Part shown: positions 2,607-21,317 of the stretch, in pieces
Numbering within the stretch: position 1 is the first letter of the stretch
How the letters are laid out: each line of letters begins with the position of its first letter
Source of the DNA: a virus
Strand: one strand, 5' to 3'
Length of the DNA: 21,317 bases
IMG/VR virus record: IMGVR_UViG_3300020419_000096
Span: 1 to 21,317 of that record
Notes under the pieces: model-generated
The model's input: the letters and a program-made list of their open reading frames with translations, nothing else
Database searches by the model: none
What the model was told of the DNA's origin: nothing
Program-made: the position numbers and the translations under genes

Positions 2607-2831
2607 ATGTTATTAGATACAAGAGAACAAGATTTTTATATTATATATGATTCAAATGATAATAATAAAGTTGTAGGAATGCTAGATTCCGAAGCTGATA
2701 AAGATGCACATGATGCATTAAATCCTAATCATATAAAAATTAGCACAAATACAGTAAATAGTCCTTTGGGGTCATGTCTTTATTTACATGAAGTACAAGT
2801 AAACTCTGATGGCACAGCTAGTAAGGTATAA
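2607..2831 (+). CDS. Small acidic protein of unknown function (74 aa)
   Basis: I do not recognise this family. The 74-residue product is rich in Asp and Asn, with no signal peptide, membrane segment or known motif. It starts 3 nt after the upstream fibre stop; the GGGG just before that stop (2597-2600) could serve as a weak ribosome binding site. Its own stop (TAA, 2829-2831) lies inside the TATAAATA box of the next fibre gene. Sandwiched between two fibre genes, it may be a fibre-associated or fibre-assembly protein, analogous in position to the small accessory genes near T4 fibre genes. That role rests on position only. Confidence 0.7.
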   Translation: MLLDTREQDFYIIYDSNDNNKVVGMLDSEADKDAHDALNPNHIKISTNTVNSPLGSCLYLHEVQVNSDGTASKV

Positions 2832-2834
2832 ATA
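2825..2834 (+). promoter_or_regulatory. T4-type late promoter box before the 1329-aa fibre gene
   Basis: GGTATAAATA, with the full T4 late consensus TATAAATA at 2827-2834. It overlaps the preceding gene's stop codon and ends 5 nt before the ATG at 2840. In T4 this box lies at about -13 to -6 and is read by the gp55 sigma factor, which would place the transcript start at or next to the ATG. No Shine-Dalgarno sequence fits in the gap. Confidence 0.65.
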
Positions 2835-2839
2835 CAAGT

Positions 2840-5800
2840 ATGGCAAACACTAAAGTAACATCATCACTTATAGAATCCGGAGCAATAAATGCAGGTCACG
2901 TTACTAATTTAACGTCAGCCCATATTGCTGAAGGATCAAATCTATACCATACAGATGCGCGTTCACGTGCAAGTATATCTGTTGGTGGTAGTGATATAGC
3001 ATATAATTCTAGCACTGGTGTTATTACAGGATCAAGACCTAGTCTTGCGCAGGTATTAGGCCAAGGTAATAGTACAGGTTCAGCTGGTATTGCATTTCCT
3101 GATAACCAAAAGGCATTATTTGGGACAGGTTCAGATTTACAAATTCATCACGATGGTACTAATAATCTTATACAAGGAAGTGCCGGTACTGTTCTTTATA
3201 TACAAGCTAAAGCCGGAGAAAATTCCATTCTTGCAATACCAGATGGTGCAGTAACTCTTTATCATAACAATCAGTTAAAATTTGAAACAACTTCTACTGG
3301 TATATCAGTTAATCAAGGCAAACTAACAATAAGTGAATTCACAGGTTCTGATAATTATACACAAATTAGAAAAACAAATACTGGTTCTAATCTAGCTTTA
3401 GTTTCACAAGAAAGTATCTATATGATGCTTGATGAAAATAACGACCAAACAAATCGATCATTCCAAGTTAAGAAAAATTCAGGTGCACCTGGAAGTGGAT
3501 CGGTGTTATTTATTGTAGAAGAAAACGGAAACTCTACAGTATACGGAAGTTTAGCTGTCACAGGAGATTTAAATATTACTGGCGATATTAATTCGGTATC
3601 AGTAACAGATTTAGATGTTGTAGATAAAACAATTACTCTTGGAAGGGGACAAACTGAATCCGCTTCAGGTGGTTCTGGTATTATAGTTGATGGTTCAAGT
3701 GCTAGTTTATTGTGGGATGAATCAACAGATATTTGGGACTTTAATAAAGGGTTTGAGGCTGGGGGTAAAGTATTTTTTAAACCTACTAGTGCACAAACTG
3801 GTTATGCTCTTTTTGATGATGGTTCAAATGGCGGCATTCATATTAAAGCAGATACATCATCTGTAACTACAGAATATATTACAACAGGTTTTGGAGCATT
3901 TGAAGAGGCTCGATTTGTTGCATCTAATTTTGTGTGGAAAAATTCTGGTACATCTACTAGAGCAGAAATTGATTCAAGTGGTAATTTCGCAGTATTAGAA
4001 GGAAATATGCTAAGAGCATATCGTGCTGGAAATAGTGCATATGCTGCACTCTTTATGGACTCTGGTGAAAAGCTTTATATAAGAAATAGTTGGGGCACTA
4101 AAGATATTGTAATGCTAAGAACTGGTGAGGTTGGTATAGGAACAGCTAGTCCATTACAGAAATTAGATGTTCGTGGCGGTAATATATTTGTTGGTGGATA
4201 TGGCAGTGGTAATGATTATGGTATGATATTTAGTCCAGCTGATGGATCATCATACTGGAACATTTATAATGATGCTGGCGGAGAGTTAGCCTTTTGTAGA
4301 AATATTACTATCGGTTCCAGTGAAATGGCTAGATTTGATGGTACTGGTAATTTTGGTATCGGAACTAATAATCCATCTGCAAAATTAAATGTAAAACACA
4401 CAGGAGGTACTGGAGTTCGTATAGAAACGGACGGAGATACAGATTCTAACTTTTTACACTTTAAAACTTCTTCTAGCACAGGGCAGGGATATATTGGAAC
4501 TGAAGGTAACACAGCAGGAGCAAACTTTACAGGAAGTACTGCTTATGCGTTTGTAGTCGGTTCAACTTCAAGTGGGGTAGACACACAATTTCTTACTGCA
4601 GGAGCAGTTAGAGCAACTATTGATCACACGGGCAAAGTCGGTATCGGCACAACTTCTCCAGCTGGACCACTTCATGTTGATGGACATACGGGCTCTCTTG
4701 CAACAATACTTGAAGGTAATGGAAACGGCGATACAGTACCTTTACATTTTAGAGTAAAAGCAAATAATAATAATGTTACTAATCATGGTATTTTTGGAAA
4801 TGCAGGATCAACTGGAGCAGATAACTTTATTCACATAGGGCCATCTAATACAAGTGGTATATCTGTTATGAGTACTGGCAACGTCGGTATCGGCACTAAT
4901 AATCCAGGTGTTGAATTAGATATTCAGAGAACAGCAAATTCATACCCATTAAGAATTGGTTCAAGCCAAGGAGAGGGTCGTGCTATAGTATTTGCTGACG
5001 TTCACGCATCACCTAACAAATATAACTGGATAACCGGTTCACAGTATAACGTAGATAGTTCATTTGAAATAACACCTTCTACTGCTGTAGGCGGTTATAC
5101 TTTTAATAATCCATCTATGGTATTTAAACCAGATGGGCAGGTATTAATTAATAAAACAGGTTCTGATGTTGGCGCATCTACCAATATATTGGAAATAGAT
5201 GGAAATGTTAGAATACAAGGTGGGCATTACGGAATTAAATTAAATAATGGTGCAGTCGAAAGATACCTTGGAAGACTCTTATCAAATAATTCCCTTACGA
5301 TACTTCATGATAAAATTGGTCTTGATACAAATAATAATATAAAGTTTTCTGGAATTAGTCAAAAGGCTATTACGATTGAAAATTCACCTGCATCAAATGA
5401 TGTAGGAGTTACAACATTCCTTGCATCAAATAATGCAAGTGCTGGTGTAGGTTATGCAGCAAATATAATAGGTGTTAATATTGCAAATACCGTTAACAGT
5501 AATAACATGCCTACACAAAATAATACCTGGGGTGGTGTATCAGGTGCTTCTGCATTTTCAATGAACGCAGATATGACTGGCACACCTACTAATACATATT
5601 TTAGATTTATGCGAACAGAACAAGACTCCTCTGCAGGTACGGAGCTAGTAACAGTGGCTTCCATAGACAAAGATGGCAAGTTTGTAGGGGGTGGTGCAAC
5701 ATTATCAGGTAATGTTAATATTAGCGCAGTACATTCTCAATTAACATTAACTGACACAGACGACAGTAAATTTGTTTTATATAGTTATTCAGGTGGTAAA

Positions 5801-6829
5801 TTAATAGTTAGAAATAATTCAATTAATACTACAGTCAATCAATTTACATTGCTTGAGGATGGCAAGTTTGGAATTGGAACAATTAATCCAACACATAAAC
5901 TGGATGTATATGGTACAGATGATATTACTATGCGTATACATAGGCCTAGTTCTGGATTGGCAGCAACAGATACTTGCGGTATTGGTTTCTCACAAAGAGG
6001 AGATGCAAATACTTCAACCTCAGATACAAGGGCTGGTATATTTAGTACATATAATGGAAACTTATTTTTAGCCACTGAACCTGGAGGCAATTTAAGTAGT
6101 AATCCAATGGATCATTCAGCGTTAATGATTACAGGTACTAGTCAAAAAATTGGTATCGGAACAATTAATCCACAAGATAAACTACATGTATATAACGGTG
6201 ATATAGGAATAGAAAATAGTTCAGGTAGAAGATATAGGTTAATTGCTGAAACCAATGGCGGATTTACAATTAGAGACCAATCAGCTTCAGCAGGCAGATT
6301 AGAAATTGATACTAGTGGTAAACTTACTGTATTATCTGGAAATATTCAACTTGGTGCTTCTACTAACTATAAAGTAGTAAAAGGTGTTTATAGAAAAAAT
6401 ATTTCGGCCAATAAATCATTTACTGCAGCATTTAAAGTTAATGGTAGTGTATTAGGATCACAATTTAGATTTTCAATAATCGGATCAATCGGAAACGTAG
6501 TTATTAATGCAAGATACGAAATACTGGTAAATCACTCTTACGATTGTGTAGTACAAAGTTTAAGTGGCTCCTATACCGAAACAAAAGTAAAAGTTGTAAG
6601 TAATGGAAATGAAGACTGTACAGTTTATGTAGGGGCAAATACCCATTTAGGTAATACCATTTCAAATCTTGAATGTGAGGTTGAAACATTTAATAATGAG
6701 ACAATTTCATTTGATACTAGTAGCCCACATACAACTGCACACTTTATACATACTGCATCTCCAGGTGCTAATACAACATTTACTGGTGCAATGCCAACTG
6801 GTGCGGGAACAACTACTGCATACACATAA
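2840..6829 (+). CDS. Tail fibre protein (1329 aa)
   Basis: Large fibre protein. The N-terminus (about residues 1-60) carries the LYHTDARSRASISVGG motif common in marine T4-like fibres, and a LQIHHDGTNNLIQ motif follows at about 109-121. Residues 236-303 are a module paralogous to the visible start of the upstream fibre (DLNITGDINSVSVTDLDVVDKT). Six GIGT units follow (GEVGIGTASP, GNFGIGTNNP, GKVGIGTTSP, GNVGIGTNNP, GKFGIGTINP, QKIGIGTINP), each continuing into an L-D/N/H-V strand, as in beta-rich trimeric shafts. From about residue 1177 a non-repetitive C-terminal domain begins, ending in a Thr/Ala/Gly-rich tail, with no S74 chaperone motif. The ATG at 2840 is the natural start, 5 nt after a late promoter box and without a visible ribosome binding site. 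It is probably a host-binding appendage; its exact place in the virion cannot be told from sequence. Confidence 0.88.
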   Translation: MANTKVTSSLIESGAINAGHVTNLTSAHIAEGSNLYHTDARSRASISVGGSDIAYNSSTGVITGSRPSLAQVLGQGNSTGSAGIAFPDNQKALFGTGSDLQIHHDGTNNLIQGSAGTVLYIQAKAGENSILAIPDGAVTLYHNNQLKFETTSTGISVNQGKLTISEFTGSDNYTQIRKTNTGSNLALVSQESIYMMLDENNDQTNRSFQVKKNSGAPGSGSVLFIVEENGNSTVYGSLAVTGDLNITGDINSVSVTDLDVVDKTITLGRGQTESASGGSGIIVDGSSASLLWDESTDIWDFNKGFEAGGKVFFKPTSAQTGYALFDDGSNGGIHIKADTSSVTTEYITTGFGAFEEARFVASNFVWKNSGTSTRAEIDSSGNFAVLEGNMLRAYRAGNSAYAALFMDSGEKLYIRNSWGTKDIVMLRTGEVGIGTASPLQKLDVRGGNIFVGGYGSGNDYGMIFSPADGSSYWNIYNDAGGELAFCRNITIGSSEMARFDGTGNFGIGTNNPSAKLNVKHTGGTGVRIETDGDTDSNFLHFKTSSSTGQGYIGTEGNTAGANFTGSTAYAFVVGSTSSGVDTQFLTAGAVRATIDHTGKVGIGTTSPAGPLHVDGHTGSLATILEGNGNGDTVPLHFRVKANNNNVTNHGIFGNAGSTGADNFIHIGPSNTSGISVMSTGNVGIGTNNPGVELDIQRTANSYPLRIGSSQGEGRAIVFADVHASPNKYNWITGSQYNVDSSFEITPSTAVGGYTFNNPSMVFKPDGQVLINKTGSDVGASTNILEIDGNVRIQGGHYGIKLNNGAVERYLGRLLSNNSLTILHDKIGLDTNNNIKFSGISQKAITIENSPASNDVGVTTFLASNNASAGVGYAANIIGVNIANTVNSNNMPTQNNTWGGVSGASAFSMNADMTGTPTNTYFRFMRTEQDSSAGTELVTVASIDKDGKFVGGGATLSGNVNISAVHSQLTLTDTDDSKFVLYSYSGGKLIVRNNSINTTVNQFTLLEDGKFGIGTINPTHKLDVYGTDDITMRIHRPSSGLAATDTCGIGFSQRGDANTSTSDTRAGIFSTYNGNLFLATEPGGNLSSNPMDHSALMITGTSQKIGIGTINPQDKLHVYNGDIGIENSSGRRYRLIAETNGGFTIRDQSASAGRLEIDTSGKLTVLSGNIQLGASTNYKVVKGVYRKNISANKSFTAAFKVNGSVLGSQFRFSIIGSIGNVVINARYEILVNHSYDCVVQSLSGSYTETKVKVVSNGNEDCTVYVGANTHLGNTISNLECEVETFNNETISFDTSSPHTTAHFIHTASPGANTTFTGAMPTGAGTTTAYT
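4124..6200 (+). repeat. Six GIGT..P..L-V fibre-shaft repeats
   Basis: Degenerate coding repeat with consensus G-x-x-GIGT-x-x-P-x-x-x-L-x-V. The units begin near 4124, 4345, 4633, 4876, 5857 and 6147. Spacing is irregular (roughly 220 to 980 bp) and the DNA has diverged between copies, so selection appears to act on the protein. The unit is widespread in phage fibres and usually marks a shaft or subdomain boundary. Confidence 0.75.
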
Positions 6830-6834
6830 AATAG

Positions 6835-6844
6835 GGTATAAATA
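6835..6844 (+). promoter_or_regulatory. T4-type late promoter box before the giant fibre gene
   Basis: GGTATAAATA, with consensus TATAAATA at 6837-6844. As at 2825, it ends 5 nt before the ATG (6850), and the next bases again read ATGGC. The spacer (GAATA) leaves no room for a Shine-Dalgarno sequence. Only 20 nt separate the upstream stop codon from this start, and the box occupies most of that gap. Confidence 0.65.
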
Positions 6845-6849
6845 GAATA

Positions 6850-9800
6850 ATGGCGTATACAATAAACAGACATTTAGCTAACCTACTTACCAGTACAGGG
6901 TCACTTGCGACTGGAAAAATACCTGCTGATTATATTACTAACGCACACATTGCAGATAATACAATTGCAACTTCCCAATTACATTCTTCATTTACTATTG
7001 GGTCAGGACATATACCTGCAAATACAGTAACCATTTCACATCTTGCGGTAACAGATGGTTCTGCAGGTCAAGTATTAAAGACAGATGGTTCGGGTAATTT
7101 ATCATTTACAACAATATCTGCAGATAAAATTACAGAAGGAAATACTTTTGTAGAAGCAGTAGATACTGGTTCAAATGGCCAAATTTTATTTGTAACAGAA
7201 AATACTCAAAGATGGCAAATATCATCTGCAGGACATTTACTACCTATTGCACATAATTCATTTGATATTGGTTCAGCATCACATAAGGTAAGAGATTTAT
7301 ATGTGGATGATAACAGTATTCACATAGGTGAAGATACAAAGTTAAGTGTTGATGCCGCTGGTGAATTTAATATTACTGATAATGCTGGTATTCCTAAGAA
7401 AATAAAAGTTGATGAAATAGAAATTGGTACTGGTGATGATAGAGTTATTCTTAAAAAGGGTGCTAGTGGAGATATAGAACAGCAGAGAAAATTATCCGGT
7501 GTAAAACAAACAGCAACAAAACCATTTTTAATTGGCGTCCATAATAGTGGAGATATCACAGAAGGCGGATCAAATAAATTCTATACAGATGCCAGAGTAC
7601 AAGCATATCTTACTGGTCAAGGGATTGTAAATCAGACTTCGGTTATTGCGGCAATTACTGATTCTGCTCCTGCCGCATTAGATACACTGAATGAATTGGC
7701 TGCAGCAATAGGTGATGATGAAAACTTTTCCACAACCATTACAAATAGTATTGCTACAAAAGCGCCAAAAGCAAGTCCAATATTTACGGGAACTGTGACA
7801 GGTGTTACAGGATCGTTTTCAGGAAGTCTGGCTTTAAGTGCAGATAGTTCACAACTCCAGCTGGGTACTGGTAATCGAGCTCAAATATTCCATAATAGTG
7901 CTGCACTTTATTTACGTAGTTCTACAGGTGGAGTTATTGTACAAGGTCCCACATTAAATCATTATTCATCAGATGCTACAACATTATATTTTAGTTCTGC
8001 ATCTGGTGGTTTATCTTTTGGTGGAACTAACTTTTTAAATTCATCAAGAAAATTACAGAATGTTACTTTAGGTGAAGGCACAACCGGGGCAAGATTTCAG
8101 GCTAATGCTTGGCATTATGATAACAGCGGCCTGGCACGTTTCTACTTTGAAGGTAATGGCCGTACATTTTATAGATCGGAAACTGGTCACCAATTTAGAG
8201 CCAATGGAGATGCTACAAGATTTAATATTAGTCCTGCAGGTCATATTCATATTGCATCAAATGGAGATTCACAAGCAAGTAGCACTGAATATATTAAGGC
8301 TGGTGGTGTAGCAGTTTTAACTTCTAGCAGAGTCTTGCAAAATGTCTCTGGTAATGTTTCTATGTTTACCAATGATGCTGGTTACACAACAAATGTTGGA
8401 GATGTAACTGCAGTTGGTGGACAATCGGGAACTCCAATTTCCGTTGCTGATGGTGGTGGGCCAGTTCCAAAAATTGGTTGGTATACTACACTTATTAATA
8501 CCAGTACAAATAATGATGATGGTGATTATTTCTTAGTTCACAATGGTACTGCAAATAGTGGAAGTTCACATAAACTTTTAAAGGCCAATATTAATATATC
8601 AGGATTTAATAATGATGCTGGTTATACCTCATTCGATGGTAATTATAACAGTTTATCAAATAGACCTACAATACCAACAAATAATAATCAATTAACTAAC
8701 GGCGCGGCTTATATTACCTCAAGCGCACTAAGTCCATATTTAACATCCAGTACTGCAGCATCTACATATGCGACACCTGCTGATATTACAGCGGCAGTAA
8801 ATGGTCTTGTAGATGGCGCGCCAGGTGCACTTAATACTCTTGATGAATTGGCCGCAGCATTGGGTGATGATCAAAATTTTGCCACAACAATTACAAACAG
8901 TATTGGAAATAAGGCACCTATAAGCACAACGGTTACTCTTGCAGATACACAAACAATAAGTGGTGCAAAAACATTTAGCAGTTCTTCACTCCGACTTAAA
9001 GGTCATATGTTCTTTGATCAGTATTCAGCTGGTAGACATTATATTCACTTTGCTGCTCCTGCCGGTCAGCATACAAACAGAGTTGATTGGAGAATTCAGA
9101 CCGATGGTAATAATTCTACAATACATTCGTGGTATCATGATAAAGTTGTCTTTACTACTCGAATGGAAGTTAATGCATCAAGTTCAAGTCTTAAAGGGCC
9201 GGTTTATATTACCGAACAAAATTCTACCGGCGAAGGTGGAGAGATTACATTAAATGGAAGTAATGGAAATACAAGCCATACACTTGATACAGTAAACGGT
9301 ACATTTAGAATATTTGATACAAGTGGAACTTTTATAACTGGTAACTCAGGATATGGTTTAAATTCCATAAACGGCTATCGTGTAAATGGTACTAGTGTTA
9401 TTGATTCGGGTAGGAATACTAACTTTAATAATTCTAATGCGATAAGTTTCTTATCAACAAATGGTTACTGGGTTGGAGGCACTAGACGAATAGATGGCTC
9501 TGGTAATTTAGAAAATATTGGAACTATCTCTAGTGGTGCTATAACAGCTAATTCAGGAAACAGAGTACTTACATTACTTACTGCAAGTCAAGCTGTTACC
9601 GATGATAATGCGGGCTTCACAATAAGAGAGAAAGATACTTATTCAGACGGCAGATACGAACACAGATTTAGAAAAAGAGACGAAGGTGGCGGAATACCAC
9701 TTTATATAGACAAAACCTCACATATTGCAGGTACTCATGCACAAATTGCCAGATTTGGTAGTTATACAAGTAACCCTGACGAATTTGAAGTTTATGGTGG

Positions 9801-12800
9801 TATGAGAGCAGCAAGTGGTGCTATAATAGGAAAACTTGCTGTAAAGAGTAGTGCTGTTCATGCATCTTATGATTTCTATAACAATGGAACTTCATACTTT
9901 AACGGATCGGTTGTTGTAGATGACGCATTAAGTATAACTGGTGCTAGTGCAAAATTAAATATAGGCGGCCAACAGGTTTTATCTTCTGCACGAAATATGA
10001 CCAATGTGACTGGTAATATTTCCATGTTTACTAACGATAGTGGATATATTACATCGGCCAATGGTGGTAATGCAGCAACATTAGATAGTCTTGATTCTAC
10101 TAAGTTTACTTATTATCGAGGTGTAGTATCTGGAGATTGGGATACTATCTTTACCACTGCATCAAATCAAACAGGTACAAGTGGACTTTATCAGATAAAC
10201 AATACTGCAAGTGGACATAGTAATTTCCCAGTTGCATCAGGTGCAATGCTTTCACCATACAGTTATGGCGGTGTCTTTGCATGGAATCTTGCAAACCATA
10301 CATTTAAATTATATTCACCTCATGTGGGTAATTTATATTATCAATCAGGTTGGAATAATGATGAATATTCTGGCTGGAGAATGATAATTGATAGTGGTAA
10401 CTATGCATCGGCAGGTTTATGGGCAAGTCACAATGATGGTTCAGGATCAGGCCTAGATGCAGATACACTTGATGGACAACAAGGATCCTACTATGCAATT
10501 GCAGGTGATTCACAAGTATTCCAAAGAAGAGGAAGTCTTAATATTAATGATACCTCTGATGGAAGTCAACACAATCCATTCGACAATGCACATGTAGAAA
10601 CAAAGGTTGCAGAAAATGGAAGCAGATCAGTAAGTTATACCGGTGCTAGTGCACACTTATTTACTTCATTTACTGGAGGTAGTGCGTCAGTATTACAAAT
10701 TGGTGCTCATTATAACGGCGATGATTTCTACATGCGAGTTAGAACAGATGGTTCTAGTTGGAAAGACTGGAGAAAATTGTGGCATACAGGGAATGATGGT
10801 GCAAGTTCTGGCTTAGATGCAGATTTACTTGATGGTCAACAAGGATCATATTATCTAGACTATAATAATTTAAGTAATAAACCAACCATCTCGGGTGTTA
10901 ATACTGGAACAAATAATGTATTTACCGTAACACAATATTTTAGAAAGAATAATGTAACAAATTATACAGATGCTCAACTTTTAACCGAAAGTTATGGTGG
11001 GGCCTCTTCAACAGCAGGTATTGGTTTCCATATATCAGGTTCTGTCGGCCGATACTTATACATGAATAATGTAGGTGATTTATATTGGAACAGTAGTAGT
11101 GCTAAAATATGGAGACAAGATAATGATGGCTCAGGTTCTGGACTTGATGCAGACTTATTGGATGGATTGGACAGTGGTATTTTCTTTAAATCTGCTACAA
11201 ATAATCATGGTGGTTGGTCACAAGCAGATAGAAACTTTAGTGTAAGAAGTGGCGGTAATGCTGTTGGTCTACACATGGAAGAGTCTGACGGAACATTTGG
11301 ATTCCAGTTATATGGAGATGGTTCTAATTATGGCTTCCTCGATGCAGAGTGGGGTGCCTGGGATGTAAAGAAAACAACAAATGGACAGTTGCAAATAGAT
11401 GAAGGAAGTGGACTTAATAAAGTTTGGACGGCAGGTAACGATGGTTCAGGTTCTGGCTTAGATGCAGATTTACTTGATGGCATTAATAGTGGTTCATTTT
11501 TACGCAGTGATAATTCTGATACTTTTGGTTCTACTTCAGCAAATCAATATATTAGATTTAATGTTAACTCAGGACAATATATTGCCTCAGCTGGTTCATC
11601 AAGTAGATTCCCAATAGAAATATATGCACCGACAGCAAATGGTGGCGATGCAGGTATTACATTCCACATTAGTGGTGACTATGCTGGTTTCTTTGGATTG
11701 GCTTCTGACTGGAACGATTTAGCGTGGGGTGGTTGGTCAGTAGGATCAACAACTAAACATAGAATTGCACATACAGGTAATTTTGCTAGTACAGGTATAT
11801 GGTATAATGGTAATGACGGTTCAGGATCAGGCCTAGATGCAGATACACTTGATGGACAACAAGGCTCTTACTATTACCCTGCTAGTAATCCTAATGGCTA
11901 TACAACTAACACTGGTACTCTAACAGGTAACCAAACAATTACATTATCTGGTGCTGTAACTGGTTCTGGTACAACATCAATATCAACATCAAATCCATAT
12001 CAGACTTCAGTAACATTCCAAGGAAGTAACGGTAATTCGCCAGATAGTGCAATGGAATACCAACAATTATCTGGTGTTACTGATACTAAAATATCTCCTA
12101 CTGGAGATTGGCACAATTCAATAAGAATGGGTCACGGTGATCCATATAATTACTACAGTAATACCATTGCAATACAGATGACAGGTGGTTTATCTGGTAC
12201 CATGAGAACACAAGGCATATACAATAATAATGCAAGTGGTTGGAGAACAGTTTGGGATACAGGTAATGATGGCTCTGGATCTGGCTTAGATGCTGACTTA
12301 CTAGACGGAGTTCAATTAGCGAATATTGCAAGAACAGACGTTGCAGAAACTTTTACTTCAAATCTAACAGTAAATAATAATTTATATATTGGTGATGGTA
12401 ATGACGGTTATTTTTACAATGACCAAAACGGTAGAACTGCATTTGCAAATGGCGATTTCTACATACAAAACTCTGTAGGTAATTATTACAACTATGCGAC
12501 AAATCAATATATTGGTGACAGTAGTGGAGACAACATTTATTTCCGAGGCAATACCCTTTCAGGAAATAGTTGGTCTCTTACAGGGGGAGGGGCCTTTACC
12601 ACTTCCGGAGTCATTGATGTAAATGGAGGTCATGGTGGTATTAACCTTACCAGTTCTTCTATTGTTTCTGATGCAACATCAACTTGGACGGGAAACCCTG
12701 GTGCACAAGGTAAAATACAATATCATTCAAACAGATGGTATATAGTTGCTGATTCATCATCAAATAGAATTGTACAATTTAGAAGAAATGGAACAGATGT

Positions 12801-13965
12801 ATCTCACATTGATAATTCTGGTAATTTCGTAGGTAATATAACAGGTTCTGCTGGTACTTTGGATGGTTTAGACAGTTCCTCATTCCTAAGAAGTGATACT
12901 GCAGATTCATTTACTGGCCAACTTACAATGTCTACACAAAAAGCTCTAATTGCCAGTAATTATGGCCATGGAGTTTATGGTGTTTATGCATCTACCCGAC
13001 ATCAGCATGTATGGTCAATGGGTACTGCTTACAATTTATCAGCTGATGGTTCGGGTGTTGGTAACCTATACGGGCTTTCATATACTCACACAAACGTTGG
13101 TACGGGATATGGATCCAATTCTGCAGCTGGATTAGGTCACCAATTAAATGGTAGAGCAAATGGTACCTTACAATGGGCACTAGGAGAAGGTATATATTCT
13201 GCAGTATCTGGAACTGTAATAGGCCTTAATAATGACGGTTCTGGTTGTGGACTGGATGCAGATTTAGTGGATGGTATTCACGGCTCATCATTCCTAAGGG
13301 GTGATTCAAATACTCAAATTAATGATAGTGTCATACTCACAGTAAGAGGAGCATTAACAACTGGTACATCTGGGCAGAACTATGCATCGGGTGGTAATTA
13401 TTACTATGGATATCAATATCAAGGAGCATGGTCTCATCCTTACCCAGACCTAGTTTTAGGTTATCATACTGGTATGAGGCTTGGAGGTTACACTGGGTAC
13501 GGAGGTACAAGATTCTATTCAGACCACCCACATAGAACAACAACTATATTATTTAGTGTAGGTAATGGCGACAGTCATGTAAGAGCAACAAATAATATTT
13601 ATGCATATACATCTGATATAAGATTAAAAGAAAACTTTAGGCCTATAGAAAATGCAGTTGATAAAGTAAAAGCAATAGGTGGATTTATATTTGACTGGCG
13701 TAAAGACATGATGGATGAGCATGATTTTGTTCCTGACCAAGAAAAGGATGATGCAGGATTAATTGCTCAAGAAGTACAAAAAGTATTACCTGCTGCAATT
13801 AAACGAGCACCTTTTGACCATGACTTAACAAAACCAAATCAGAGTAAGTCTGGAGAAGAATTTTTAACAGTCCAATACGAAAAAGTAGTACCTCTCTTAG
13901 TAGAGGCTATTAAAGAACAACAAAAACAAATAGATGAATTGAAAAAATTATTGGAGAATAAATAA
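6850..13965 (+). CDS. Giant tail fibre protein with C-terminal S74 chaperone domain (2371 aa)
   Basis: Very long fibre, about twice T4 gp34 or gp37. The N-terminus has an ITNAHIADNTIATSQL stretch, then FYTDARVQAYL near residue 245. Two copies of a tail-fibre repeat (ALDTLNELAAAIGDD..F..TITNSI) lie at about 273-306 and 648-690. Residues 1085-1193 resemble a pyocin-knob-type domain ending in SGWRMI. Seven NDGSGSGLDADLLDG-type units punctuate residues 1195-2151, several directly preceded by a W..WR.LWHTG-like strand. The end (2255-2371) matches the peptidase S74 intramolecular chaperone: SDIRLKENF, DAGLIAQEVQKVLP and LTVQYEKVVPLLVEAIKEQ, then a terminal coiled coil. S2255 and K2260 have the Ser-x4-Lys spacing of the S74 cleavage dyad. 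The domain is expected to trimerise the fibre and then cut itself off just before S2255. The stop overlaps the next start (TAATG). Confidence 0.9.
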   Translation: MAYTINRHLANLLTSTGSLATGKIPADYITNAHIADNTIATSQLHSSFTIGSGHIPANTVTISHLAVTDGSAGQVLKTDGSGNLSFTTISADKITEGNTFVEAVDTGSNGQILFVTENTQRWQISSAGHLLPIAHNSFDIGSASHKVRDLYVDDNSIHIGEDTKLSVDAAGEFNITDNAGIPKKIKVDEIEIGTGDDRVILKKGASGDIEQQRKLSGVKQTATKPFLIGVHNSGDITEGGSNKFYTDARVQAYLTGQGIVNQTSVIAAITDSAPAALDTLNELAAAIGDDENFSTTITNSIATKAPKASPIFTGTVTGVTGSFSGSLALSADSSQLQLGTGNRAQIFHNSAALYLRSSTGGVIVQGPTLNHYSSDATTLYFSSASGGLSFGGTNFLNSSRKLQNVTLGEGTTGARFQANAWHYDNSGLARFYFEGNGRTFYRSETGHQFRANGDATRFNISPAGHIHIASNGDSQASSTEYIKAGGVAVLTSSRVLQNVSGNVSMFTNDAGYTTNVGDVTAVGGQSGTPISVADGGGPVPKIGWYTTLINTSTNNDDGDYFLVHNGTANSGSSHKLLKANINISGFNNDAGYTSFDGNYNSLSNRPTIPTNNNQLTNGAAYITSSALSPYLTSSTAASTYATPADITAAVNGLVDGAPGALNTLDELAAALGDDQNFATTITNSIGNKAPISTTVTLADTQTISGAKTFSSSSLRLKGHMFFDQYSAGRHYIHFAAPAGQHTNRVDWRIQTDGNNSTIHSWYHDKVVFTTRMEVNASSSSLKGPVYITEQNSTGEGGEITLNGSNGNTSHTLDTVNGTFRIFDTSGTFITGNSGYGLNSINGYRVNGTSVIDSGRNTNFNNSNAISFLSTNGYWVGGTRRIDGSGNLENIGTISSGAITANSGNRVLTLLTASQAVTDDNAGFTIREKDTYSDGRYEHRFRKRDEGGGIPLYIDKTSHIAGTHAQIARFGSYTSNPDEFEVYGGMRAASGAIIGKLAVKSSAVHASYDFYNNGTSYFNGSVVVDDALSITGASAKLNIGGQQVLSSARNMTNVTGNISMFTNDSGYITSANGGNAATLDSLDSTKFTYYRGVVSGDWDTIFTTASNQTGTSGLYQINNTASGHSNFPVASGAMLSPYSYGGVFAWNLANHTFKLYSPHVGNLYYQSGWNNDEYSGWRMIIDSGNYASAGLWASHNDGSGSGLDADTLDGQQGSYYAIAGDSQVFQRRGSLNINDTSDGSQHNPFDNAHVETKVAENGSRSVSYTGASAHLFTSFTGGSASVLQIGAHYNGDDFYMRVRTDGSSWKDWRKLWHTGNDGASSGLDADLLDGQQGSYYLDYNNLSNKPTISGVNTGTNNVFTVTQYFRKNNVTNYTDAQLLTESYGGASSTAGIGFHISGSVGRYLYMNNVGDLYWNSSSAKIWRQDNDGSGSGLDADLLDGLDSGIFFKSATNNHGGWSQADRNFSVRSGGNAVGLHMEESDGTFGFQLYGDGSNYGFLDAEWGAWDVKKTTNGQLQIDEGSGLNKVWTAGNDGSGSGLDADLLDGINSGSFLRSDNSDTFGSTSANQYIRFNVNSGQYIASAGSSSRFPIEIYAPTANGGDAGITFHISGDYAGFFGLASDWNDLAWGGWSVGSTTKHRIAHTGNFASTGIWYNGNDGSGSGLDADTLDGQQGSYYYPASNPNGYTTNTGTLTGNQTITLSGAVTGSGTTSISTSNPYQTSVTFQGSNGNSPDSAMEYQQLSGVTDTKISPTGDWHNSIRMGHGDPYNYYSNTIAIQMTGGLSGTMRTQGIYNNNASGWRTVWDTGNDGSGSGLDADLLDGVQLANIARTDVAETFTSNLTVNNNLYIGDGNDGYFYNDQNGRTAFANGDFYIQNSVGNYYNYATNQYIGDSSGDNIYFRGNTLSGNSWSLTGGGAFTTSGVIDVNGGHGGINLTSSSIVSDATSTWTGNPGAQGKIQYHSNRWYIVADSSSNRIVQFRRNGTDVSHIDNSGNFVGNITGSAGTLDGLDSSSFLRSDTADSFTGQLTMSTQKALIASNYGHGVYGVYASTRHQHVWSMGTAYNLSADGSGVGNLYGLSYTHTNVGTGYGSNSAAGLGHQLNGRANGTLQWALGEGIYSAVSGTVIGLNNDGSGCGLDADLVDGIHGSSFLRGDSNTQINDSVILTVRGALTTGTSGQNYASGGNYYYGYQYQGAWSHPYPDLVLGYHTGMRLGGYTGYGGTRFYSDHPHRTTTILFSVGNGDSHVRATNNIYAYTSDIRLKENFRPIENAVDKVKAIGGFIFDWRKDMMDEHDFVPDQEKDDAGLIAQEVQKVLPAAIKRAPFDHDLTKPNQSKSGEEFLTVQYEKVVPLLVEAIKEQQKQIDELKKLLENK
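7666..7766 (+). repeat. Tail-fibre repeat, copy 1 (LDTLNELAAAIGDD)
   Basis: Encodes APAALDTLNELAAAIGDD followed by ENFSTTITNSIATKAP. A second copy with the same plan lies at 8803-8920. The unit resembles the short phage tail-fibre repeat family (phage_fiber_2 type) found in many fibre proteins. The family name is from memory and was not verified by a search. Confidence 0.65.
8803..8920 (+). repeat. Tail-fibre repeat, copy 2 (LNTLDELAAALGDD)
   Basis: Encodes VDGAPGALNTLDELAAALGD followed by DQNFATTITNSIGNKAP, then a VTLADTQTISGAKTF stretch. It matches copy 1 at 7666-7766 with conservative replacements. The copies are about 1.1 kb apart, which suggests duplication of a larger fibre module followed by divergence. 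Confidence 0.65.
10438..10484 (+). repeat. 47-bp exact direct repeat, copy A
   Basis: Identical base for base to 11818-11864 (read by eye). It encodes GSGSGLDADTLDGQQG. Other units of this repeat family differ at many third codon positions, so this identity suggests a recent duplication or gene conversion. Confidence 0.8.
11818..11864 (+). repeat. 47-bp exact direct repeat, copy B
   Basis: Partner of 10438-10484, 1380 bp downstream (460 codons, in frame). Recombination between the copies would delete 460 residues from the fibre without a frameshift. Confidence 0.8.
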
Positions 13966-14157: not shown

Positions 14158-14439
14158 ATGGCAATTTCGTATACTTTAGATGAAACTTTTACTGGAAAAA
14201 GAACTACACAAGTTCCCGATCCAGATAACGAAGGTAAAATGATAGAAACTGAAACTGACGTACGTGATGTTAAAGTTACTTTCACTGATGATTCATATGA
14301 CCCAGATAAGACACATTCACGTTCAGTTAATGTAGTGTTTGATTCTTCTGGCAACTATGATGAAGATGCAACCAAAGTTAGAATAGAAGAAGTCATGAGC
14401 GGAGTAGAAAATAAGTTTGCTGTTGGCGCAATAGAATAA
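14158..14439 (+). CDS. Small protein of unknown function, probably virion-associated (93 aa)
   Basis: Acidic 93-residue protein beginning MAISYTLDETF, with alternating hydrophobic and polar stretches (VKVTFTDDSY, RSVNVVFDSS) that suggest beta strands. Small proteins with a similar MAI-x-YT start occur among marine T4-like phage structural clusters; that resemblance is from memory and weak. It has a strong AGGAGG site, implying efficient translation from the late fibre transcript. It contains no cysteine, signal peptide or membrane segment. A small structural or decoration-type protein is possible, but function is unknown. Confidence 0.75.
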   Translation: MAISYTLDETFTGKRTTQVPDPDNEGKMIETETDVRDVKVTFTDDSYDPDKTHSRSVNVVFDSSGNYDEDATKVRIEEVMSGVENKFAVGAIE

Positions 14440-15854: not shown

Positions 15855-15862
15855 TATAAATA
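15855..15862 (+). promoter_or_regulatory. T4-type late promoter box for the neck and terminase unit
   Basis: TATAAATA in the 35-bp gap before gp13, ending 23 nt upstream of its ATG. This leaves room for a short leader with a weak TAGGAA ribosome binding site (15874-15879). It is the conventional arrangement, in contrast to the fibre genes, and probably drives genes 13 to 17. Confidence 0.7.
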
Positions 15863-15885: not shown

Positions 15886-16635
15886 ATGGCAAAACCAAAT
15901 TCAAGAACAACTTTTATTGATTATTGTTTAAGACAATTAGGTGCGCCTGTGATCGAAATTAATGTTGACGACGATCAAGTTGATGATAGAGTAGACGAGG
16001 CTCTACAATTCTATCAGCACTATCATGCAGATGCAATAGAAAAAGTCTATCTAAAACATGAGATTACATCAACTGATATTACTAATGGGTTTATACCTCT
16101 TAACGATGCAGTTACGGATGTTGTTAGATTAATGCCAATAAGAGGTACTAATTCCAGTAGTAATATGTTTGACATACAATATCAAATTATGTTAAACGAT
16201 ATGTATAATCTAGGTTTTATGGGTCAAATATTGGATTATCAAATGAAAATGCAACATCTGGCATTACTTGATATGATATTGGATTCTGATGACAAACATA
16301 TATCATTTGATAGACATAAAAATCAATTAAGAGTTGATATGGATTGGTCGCAGGAAGTAACTGCTGGTCAATATATTGTCGTTGAATGTTATAGAATTTT
16401 AGATCCAGACACATATACAGATGTTTATAACGATTACTATTTAAAGAAATATGCAACTGCATTAATTAAAAAGCAATGGGGACAGAATTTACTTAAATTC
16501 GAAGGCATGACTATGCCAGGTGGCGTACAGTTTAATGGTCGACAACTTTATGAAGATGCATTACAAGATATAGAAAGATTAGAAGAAGAAGTTAGATTGA
16601 ATTGGGAACAACCAGTTGACTTTTATACGGGGTAA
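15886..16635 (+). CDS. 13: Neck protein gp13
   Basis: Homologue of the T4 neck protein gp13, which with gp14 forms the head-tail connector completing the capsid portal so the tail can attach. It opens with MAKPNSRTTFIDYCLRQLGA then PVIEINVDDDQVDDRVDEAL, the characteristic N-terminus of T4-like gp13 with its acidic helix. Length is 249 aa against about 309 in T4, within the shorter range seen in marine relatives. Gene order is the strongest support: 13-14-15-16-17-18 follow without interruption. The start is set by the late promoter and TAGGAA leader. The stop is 3 nt before gp14. Confidence 0.9.
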   Translation: MAKPNSRTTFIDYCLRQLGAPVIEINVDDDQVDDRVDEALQFYQHYHADAIEKVYLKHEITSTDITNGFIPLNDAVTDVVRLMPIRGTNSSSNMFDIQYQIMLNDMYNLGFMGQILDYQMKMQHLALLDMILDSDDKHISFDRHKNQLRVDMDWSQEVTAGQYIVVECYRILDPDTYTDVYNDYYLKKYATALIKKQWGQNLLKFEGMTMPGGVQFNGRQLYEDALQDIERLEEEVRLNWEQPVDFYTG

Positions 16636-20358: not shown

Positions 20359-20370
20359 TATTTATAAATA
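20359..20370 (+). promoter_or_regulatory. Palindromic T4-type late promoter for the tail sheath gene
   Basis: TATAAATA at 20363-20370, inside the perfect 12-bp palindrome TATTTATAAATA. The box ends 60 nt before the sheath ATG, giving a normal leader with a ribosome binding site. A separate late promoter suits a highly abundant sheath protein. Confidence 0.7.
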
Positions 20371-20430: not shown

Positions 20431-21317
20431 ATGGCATTTCAAGTATCACCAGGAGTTCAAGTCAAGGAAATAGATGCAACAGGGGTAGTACCTGCAGTAT
20501 CGAGTTCTATTGGCGGATTTGCTGGGTCATTTAATTGGGGTCCTGTTGACGAGATCGTATCTGTTTCTTCTGAGAAGCAATTAGCGGATACCTTTGGTTC
20601 ACCGGACGACAATACTTATAAATACTTCCTTACAGCCGCGTCATTTTTAAAGTATGGCAACGCGTTAAAAGTTGTTAGAGTCGCATCAGGGCATGATAAT
20701 GCTAATGCTGCGGGTGGTAACCTTTTAATTAAAAATAGGGAAGATTATAACAACTTGAATCTTAGTGGAGTTTCACAAGGAGCATGGATTGCAAAATATC
20801 CAGGTGAATTAGGAAATTCTCTTAAGGTTTCAGTCTGTCCTGCAAATGCTACGGCATTTAATGCATGGACATATGCTTCTGAGTTTTCTGGACAACCAGG
20901 CACATCACAATATGCAACTGATTTAGGGCAGACTTCTGCCAATGATGAGATGCACATTGTTGTAATTGATGAAGATGGTTCATTTACAGGAAAAACAGGA
21001 TCAATATTAGAAACTTTTGAATTCGTTTCACAAGGTTCTGATGCTAAAAAATCAGACGGAACTTCAAATTATTATAAAGACGTTATTAATAATAACTCTG
21101 CATATATTTGGTTCTTAGCAGCACCGACTGGATTATCTGATGCAGGAGCGGCTATTTCAGCTACTTCTTCATATACAACCGTAACAGCGGCTGTAGATAA
21201 CAGTTTATCTGGAGCTACAGATGATAACGCTCCATCAACAGGAGAAATTATATCTGGTTTTGCAAAATTTGCAGATTCAGAAACTGTTGATGTAAATTTA
21301 TTGTTTGCATATCCAGA
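20431..21317 (+). CDS. 18: Tail sheath protein gp18, 3' end outside the window
   Basis: Major subunit of the contractile sheath. The frame is open from ATG 20431 to the right edge (295 complete codons; T4 gp18 has 659 residues), so this is roughly the N-terminal half. The start MAFQVSPGVQVKEIDATGVV fits the sheath signature SPGV.v.E.D, and SIGGFAGSFNWGPVDEIVSV followed by FGSPDDNTYKYFLTAASFLK is typical of T4-like sheath N-termini. Its position directly after gp17 matches T4. It has its own late promoter and ribosome binding site in the 80-bp gap. Residues after about 130 look like the variable, surface-exposed insertion domain. Confidence 0.93.
   Translation, partial: MAFQVSPGVQVKEIDATGVVPAVSSSIGGFAGSFNWGPVDEIVSVSSEKQLADTFGSPDDNTYKYFLTAASFLKYGNALKVVRVASGHDNANAAGGNLLIKNREDYNNLNLSGVSQGAWIAKYPGELGNSLKVSVCPANATAFNAWTYASEFSGQPGTSQYATDLGQTSANDEMHIVVIDEDGSFTGKTGSILETFEFVSQGSDAKKSDGTSNYYKDVINNNSAYIWFLAAPTGLSDAGAAISATSSYTTVTAAVDNSLSGATDDNAPSTGEIISGFAKFADSETVDVNLLFAYP

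Follow-up and report, generated by a model that had tools for sequence, protein, structure and literature searches.

Late promoter boxes set at a fixed distance from the start codon in T4-like phages of marine heterotrophs, and the leaderless late mRNAs that they predict

Results

Gene layout of the record

The window, by which we mean the whole 21,317-base stretch analysed (virus record IMGVR_UViG_3300020419_000096), derives from a T4-like myophage and has no near match over its whole length among named phages. From left to right, it carries a fibre ORF that runs off the left end, then a 74-aa ORF, the two giant fibre genes and small ORFs, and its right part holds gp13, gp14, gp15, gp16, gp17 and the beginning of gp18 (Table 1). 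The named phages closest by gp13 protein, all at less than 50% identity, are T4-like phages of cyanobacteria, Stenotrophomonas, Caulobacter and Pelagibacter. No gp55, gp33 or gp45 gene lies within this 21-kb fragment. An ORF of 93 aa and unknown family at 14158 is preceded by a strong Shine-Dalgarno sequence (SD), AGGAGG, and lacks a late box immediately upstream.

Table 1. Late promoter boxes, spacers and associated genes in the window
Feature	Position	Strand	Remarks
Late promoter box GGTATAAATA of fibre gene 1	2825..2834	+	T4-type; core TATAAATA at 2827-2834
5-nt spacer CAAGT, fibre gene 1	2835..2839	+	predicted -5 to -1
Fibre gene 1	2840..6829	+	1329 aa; ATGGC start; PHROG tail fibre, 4.7e-13; predicted transcript +1 = 2840
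Late promoter box GGTATAAATA of fibre gene 2	6835..6844	+	core TATAAATA at 6837-6844
5-nt spacer GAATA, fibre gene 2	6845..6849	+	
Fibre gene 2	6850..13965	+	2371 aa; C-terminal Peptidase_S74 chaperone, PF13884, 3.4e-14; predicted +1 = 6850
Late box of gp13	15855..15862	+	ends 23 nt before ATG; AGGAA in leader; leadered mode
gp13, head-tail adaptor Ad2	15886..16635	+	PHROG 211, 5.6e-44
Late box of gp18	20363..20370	+	ends 60 nt before ATG; SD AGAGGA in leader
gp18, tail sheath	20431..21317	+	PHROG 23, 3.7e-34; leadered comparison gene; runs off record

A late box and start codon at common spacing before both giant fibre genes

Both giant fibre genes are preceded by the same arrangement, GGTATAAATA-N5-ATGGC, as a preliminary description of this DNA had stated, and these are the only two copies of GGTATAAATA in the whole record. 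The first box shares bases with the stop codon (TAA, 2829-2831) of the 74-aa ORF that precedes it; the second sits in the 20-nt gap past the stop of fibre gene 1. The lack of an SD, claimed in the same description, also holds: the box-to-ATG interval contains none at either gene, and the only candidate, an AAGG at -17 of fibre gene 1, is not at a usable distance and lies upstream of the predicted +1. Both sites resemble T4 late promoters in having an exact 8-bp TATAAATA box about one helical turn before the predicted +1 (definition in PMC2988020), an A/T-rich segment just downstream of the box (CAAGT or GAATA), and a position upstream of late virion genes (gp13 to gp18 and the fibres) in a T4-like phage. 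As the first base of the T4 late box lies at -13 (PMC2988020), a spacing of 5 places the predicted +1 on the A of the ATG at both fibres, which would leave the transcripts without a leader.

Ordinary leaders would be restored if the true start codons lay downstream. The next in-frame ATG, GTG or TTG, however, is found only at codon 195 of fibre gene 1 and codon 152 of fibre gene 2, so that the annotated starts stand; moreover, the residues just after the ATG are conserved among homologues. We therefore reject wrong start codons, the probability of which is negligible.

The shared layout might also be an accident or the trace of a recent duplication in AT-rich sequence that makes TATAAATA common. 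Counts of the box leave some room for this reading: the window holds nine copies of TATAAATA vs. 4.91 expected, a number reached in 7 of 100 shuffles, so that enrichment is not clear and the count is only weakly above shuffles. The placement of the boxes is nevertheless non-random: when the 60 nt upstream of 13 window genes were shuffled in 20,000 rounds, two genes with a common spacing arose in 3 rounds and two at spacing 5 in none. Neither the N-terminus nor the spacer is the same in the two fibres, and unrelated genes on other contigs have the same spacing; chance is refuted by these comparative data, and we give it practically no weight.

The boxes of gp13 and gp18 lie farther from their start codons, at the distances given in the preliminary description. 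The gp18 box also pairs with a minus-strand TATAAATA at 20359-20366 to form an overlapping palindrome, TTATTTATAAATAATAA (20359-20370), possibly a bidirectional late promoter.

Two spacing modes in marine T4-like relatives

A search of viral contigs with the fibre 1 protein gave no match, and no named phage is near; relatives were therefore gathered through gp13 and gp17. In 154 T4-like loci fetched from viral contigs by the window gp13 and gp17 proteins, with promoters disregarded, the distance from TATAAATA to the first ATG-ORF is exactly 5 nt in 36 cases and almost never just below, and a second hump begins at 15; control 8-mers in the same loci give no spike at spacing 5. After fibre relatives and whole records were added and duplicates dropped, 223 boxes remain, and the spacing has two modes: 4-7 nt accounts for 63 boxes, among them 45 at exactly 5, and 14-30 nt for 96, with 9 in between at 8-13 nt; these counts are not fully independent because of shared ancestry, against which a tree, a gp2 set fetched by protein and recurrence across genes serve as guards. 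The gap at 8-13 nt would be expected if a transcript either has no leader or needs one with enough room for an SD. An SD-like sequence accompanies 82 of the 96 boxes at 14-30 nt, and start codons at spacing 5 are exclusively ATG (43, with no GTG and no TTG). About 18 boxes stand at 4, 6 or 7 nt, so that transcription may begin a base or two off.

Base composition around the predicted +1 was read in both modes: at leadered promoters, the base six positions past the box, the predicted +1, is a purine in 77% and C in 0%, and at spacing-5 genes base -1 is T or C in 94%. The 10 nt tabulated upstream of the box in relatives are A-rich, with a modest G excess in the two bases before the box at spacing-5 genes (38% and 40%, vs. 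12% and 21% at leadered genes), a difference that kinship of the gp13 copies inflates. These two bases correspond to 2825-2826 and 6835-6836 in the window.

The complete pattern GGTATAAATA-N5-ATGGC has at least 120 matches in IMG/VR; among the matches listed, 107 of 119 start an ORF of at least 60 aa, and the genes concerned include gp25, gp2, a tail-tube-family protein, the portal, the head protease and fibre-assembly-type proteins. The control GGTATAAATA-N10-ATGGC has 69 matches in total, 31 of them starting an ORF of at least 60 aa.

Fixed spacing within genes and switching between modes

In relatives, the box stands at the same 5-nt distance before fibre, gp2, gp25, gp13, gp16, portal and tube-type genes. 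The earlier suggestion that the layout is special to the largest virion proteins is thus not supported, since gp2, gp25 and gp13 show it more often, and a fibre-specific explanation is rejected. The gp2 set, 80 loci fetched by protein alone, contains 48 distinct loci with a box, and the spacing is exactly 5 nt in 43 of these and 4-8 nt in 46. All gp25 loci examined, likewise fetched by protein, have the box at 5, or at 6 with the variant GATAAATA. Both genes keep a spacing of 5 or 6 down to ~35% protein identity while the upstream sequence changes. The spacing in relatives had been set beforehand as a refuting test: fibre homologues that share the N-termini of the two window fibres all stand at exactly 5, one of them, found through the pattern itself, not counting as independent, and the test does not refute the leaderless reading.

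The gp13 gene behaves differently, in that its spacing varies among relatives but jumps between two discrete classes, so that this variation does not refute the leaderless reading. Its 84 orthologues occupy leaderless, leadered or no-box states, and on a maximum-likelihood tree the leaderless state requires at least seven changes, and also seven when only strongly supported branches are kept. The window gp13 is leadered, whereas orthologues in near relatives, including a neighbouring group at up to 80% protein identity, are leaderless. Arrivals at the leaderless state have a spacing of 5 or 6 nt, with one at 8 (HTVC008M). Flips of gp2 (in G006) and gp25 (in Melnitz) are also seen, each with the expected SD leader.

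These patterns bear on a further alternative, in which the box is a promoter but translation proceeds mainly from longer messages started upstream. Ribosomes would then begin by termination-reinitiation, or by S1-dependent initiation where the message is A/U-rich, and the 5-nt spacing would reflect no more than the crowding of promoters into short gaps. The gaps are indeed short (8 nt from the upstream stop to the fibre 1 ATG, 20 nt before fibre 2), and with genes on one strand read-through is likely. Crowding, however, should give short spacings of various lengths rather than a sharp peak at exactly 5 followed by a gap at 8-13; it does not predict the exclusive use of ATG at spacing 5; and it sits poorly with the constancy of gp2 and gp25 despite changing upstream sequence. 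We regard it as improbable.

Distribution among named phages

The layout is found in the cultured Pelagibacter phages HTVC008M and Mosig and in the methylophage Melnitz, in which 5 of 10, 2 of 16 and 2 of 16 TATAAATA boxes, respectively, stand at exactly 5; environmental relatives have one to four each. Genome-wide, Syn9, S-PM2 and Cr30 have no TATAAATA box at spacing 5. Matches to the looser NATAAATA at this spacing exceed control in HTVC008M (9 vs. 1), Mosig (8 vs. 0) and Melnitz (4 vs. 0), are about at control level in Syn9, S-PM2, S-CAM9, P-SSM2, P-SSM4 and P-TIM40, and are slightly above it in P-HM2 (4 vs. 1); T4 has 2 vs. 0. By these measures, T4 and the cyanophages stay close to background.

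The deposited annotation of HTVC008M, made by others, places five CDS starts exactly at spacing-5 ATGs: gp2 (DNA end protector), gp25 (baseplate wedge), a fibre-like "baseplate wedge initiator", CsgF and a 2OG-Fe(II) oxygenase. The leaderless late layout of the curli secretion gene csgF (NC_020484, 7562) suggests that it is expressed late, alongside virion genes. As a separate observation, G005 carries divergent late promoters ~50 nt apart (100966-101019) that face gp4 and a neighbour gene; the pair is conserved in G016, G006 and Mosig and resembles the layout before T4 gp4 and gp53.

Discussion

The spacing, the exclusive use of ATG, the absence of an SD, the gap between the modes, the repeated switches and the phage distribution are all directly observed. 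Taken together, they argue, with a probability that we put at roughly 0.83, that the box and the start codon make up a single unit and that T4-type promoters in these phages give rise to leaderless late mRNAs. The preliminary description had proposed leaderless messages for the fibres, and comparison of sequences strongly supports that prediction through the fixed spacing, the gap at 8-13 nt, the restriction to ATG and the presence of SD leaders where the box lies farther away.

In the mechanism that we propose, a phage late sigma of the gp55 type would read TATAAATA at -13 to -6; RNA polymerase would start on the A of the ATG, and exactly there in the window phage, to yield a 5'-AUG mRNA with no leader; and the host would translate this message without an SD. 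Alongside these, the same phages would employ ordinary late promoters whose leader, ~10-25 nt long, contains an SD, and a gene could flip between the two modes in evolution while intermediate spacings are avoided. The predicted transcripts would share two features with leaderless mRNAs, in that they begin with AUG rather than GUG or UUG and contain no SD. Leaderless mRNAs are often poorly translated in E. coli, which counts against this reading, and read-through from upstream late promoters could also yield leadered copies of the same messages.

T4-like phages of marine heterotrophs thus have two modes for their late genes, of which this layout is one. It may be asked whether the modes amount to a two-mode late programme, in which a leaderless set and an SD-led set of virion genes would be tuned separately, possibly because, at late times, the phage or the infected host makes ribosomes favour 5'-AUG initiation; a programme with such a regulatory benefit seems unlikely to us.

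A related proposal, made in the preliminary description, is that leaderless mRNAs limit the dosage of low-copy virion parts; it is an addition to the leaderless explanation and not an alternative to it. Copy numbers of virion proteins are here those generally known for T4, and the per-gene comparison leaves out gp19, for which the count mixed two tube-type paralogues. The proposal gains from gp2 and gp25, which are low-copy and nearly always leaderless, and from the high-copy gp18 and gp23, for which our sample has no leaderless case (0 of 16 boxes and 0 of 3, respectively). The low-copy gp4, however, is leadered in all 6 cases (0 leaderless) and the portal gp20, also low-copy, in 35, with 2 leaderless; the leaderless layout is frequent in a tail-tube-family protein (PHROG 45); and gp13 flips freely between modes. 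A simple copy-number rule is not upheld by these counts, and dosage control, although a live idea, is unproven and in our judgment rather doubtful.

T4 late promoters and leaderless mRNAs are each textbook matter. The promoters described here share with the gp55/gp33/gp45-dependent TATAAATA promoters of T4 the same 8-base box, the A/T-rich segment after it and the association with virion genes. They differ from them in spacing: of 20 T4 boxes within 60 nt of an ATG-ORF, none stands at 7 nt or less and 17 stand at 14-30 nt with SD leaders, whereas about a quarter to a third of the boxes in marine relatives are fused to the ATG. The late promoter of the T4-like cyanophages S-PM2 and Syn9 is NATAAATA (PMC2984593); it belongs to the same box family, and the cultured Pelagibacter phages fall in the same virus family (Kyanoviridae), but the cyanophages lack a clear excess at spacing 5.

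A leaderless phage mRNA is familiar from lambda, in cI transcribed from PRM. Bacterial leaderless genes are also known (PMC9031893, PMC3160421), and the genes studied here resemble both in a predicted transcript start at AUG, the absence of an SD and the use of AUG only. The earlier cases concern single genes or host genes with other promoter types, whereas here a phage late promoter class is involved, repeatedly for virion genes, and the leaderless state alternates with an SD leader at the same gene. A study of pelagimyophages reported that late promoter prediction was unsuccessful in those genomes (PMC7029224). Our search of the literature on T4-like phages, cyanophages and pelagiphages, conducted mostly outside subscription journals, found no report of leaderless late mRNA. 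The regular fusion of late box and ATG in these phages of marine heterotrophs is real and, as a variant of T4 late promoter use, apparently undescribed.

If our interpretation is correct, a group of phages abundant in the ocean combines promoter and translation start in a single short signal and makes key virion parts from leaderless mRNAs, and a sequence rule becomes available for recognizing late genes and their correct start codons in pelagimyophages. Sister phages that differ in whether a given gene has a leader would then provide a natural experiment on the use of leaderless translation.
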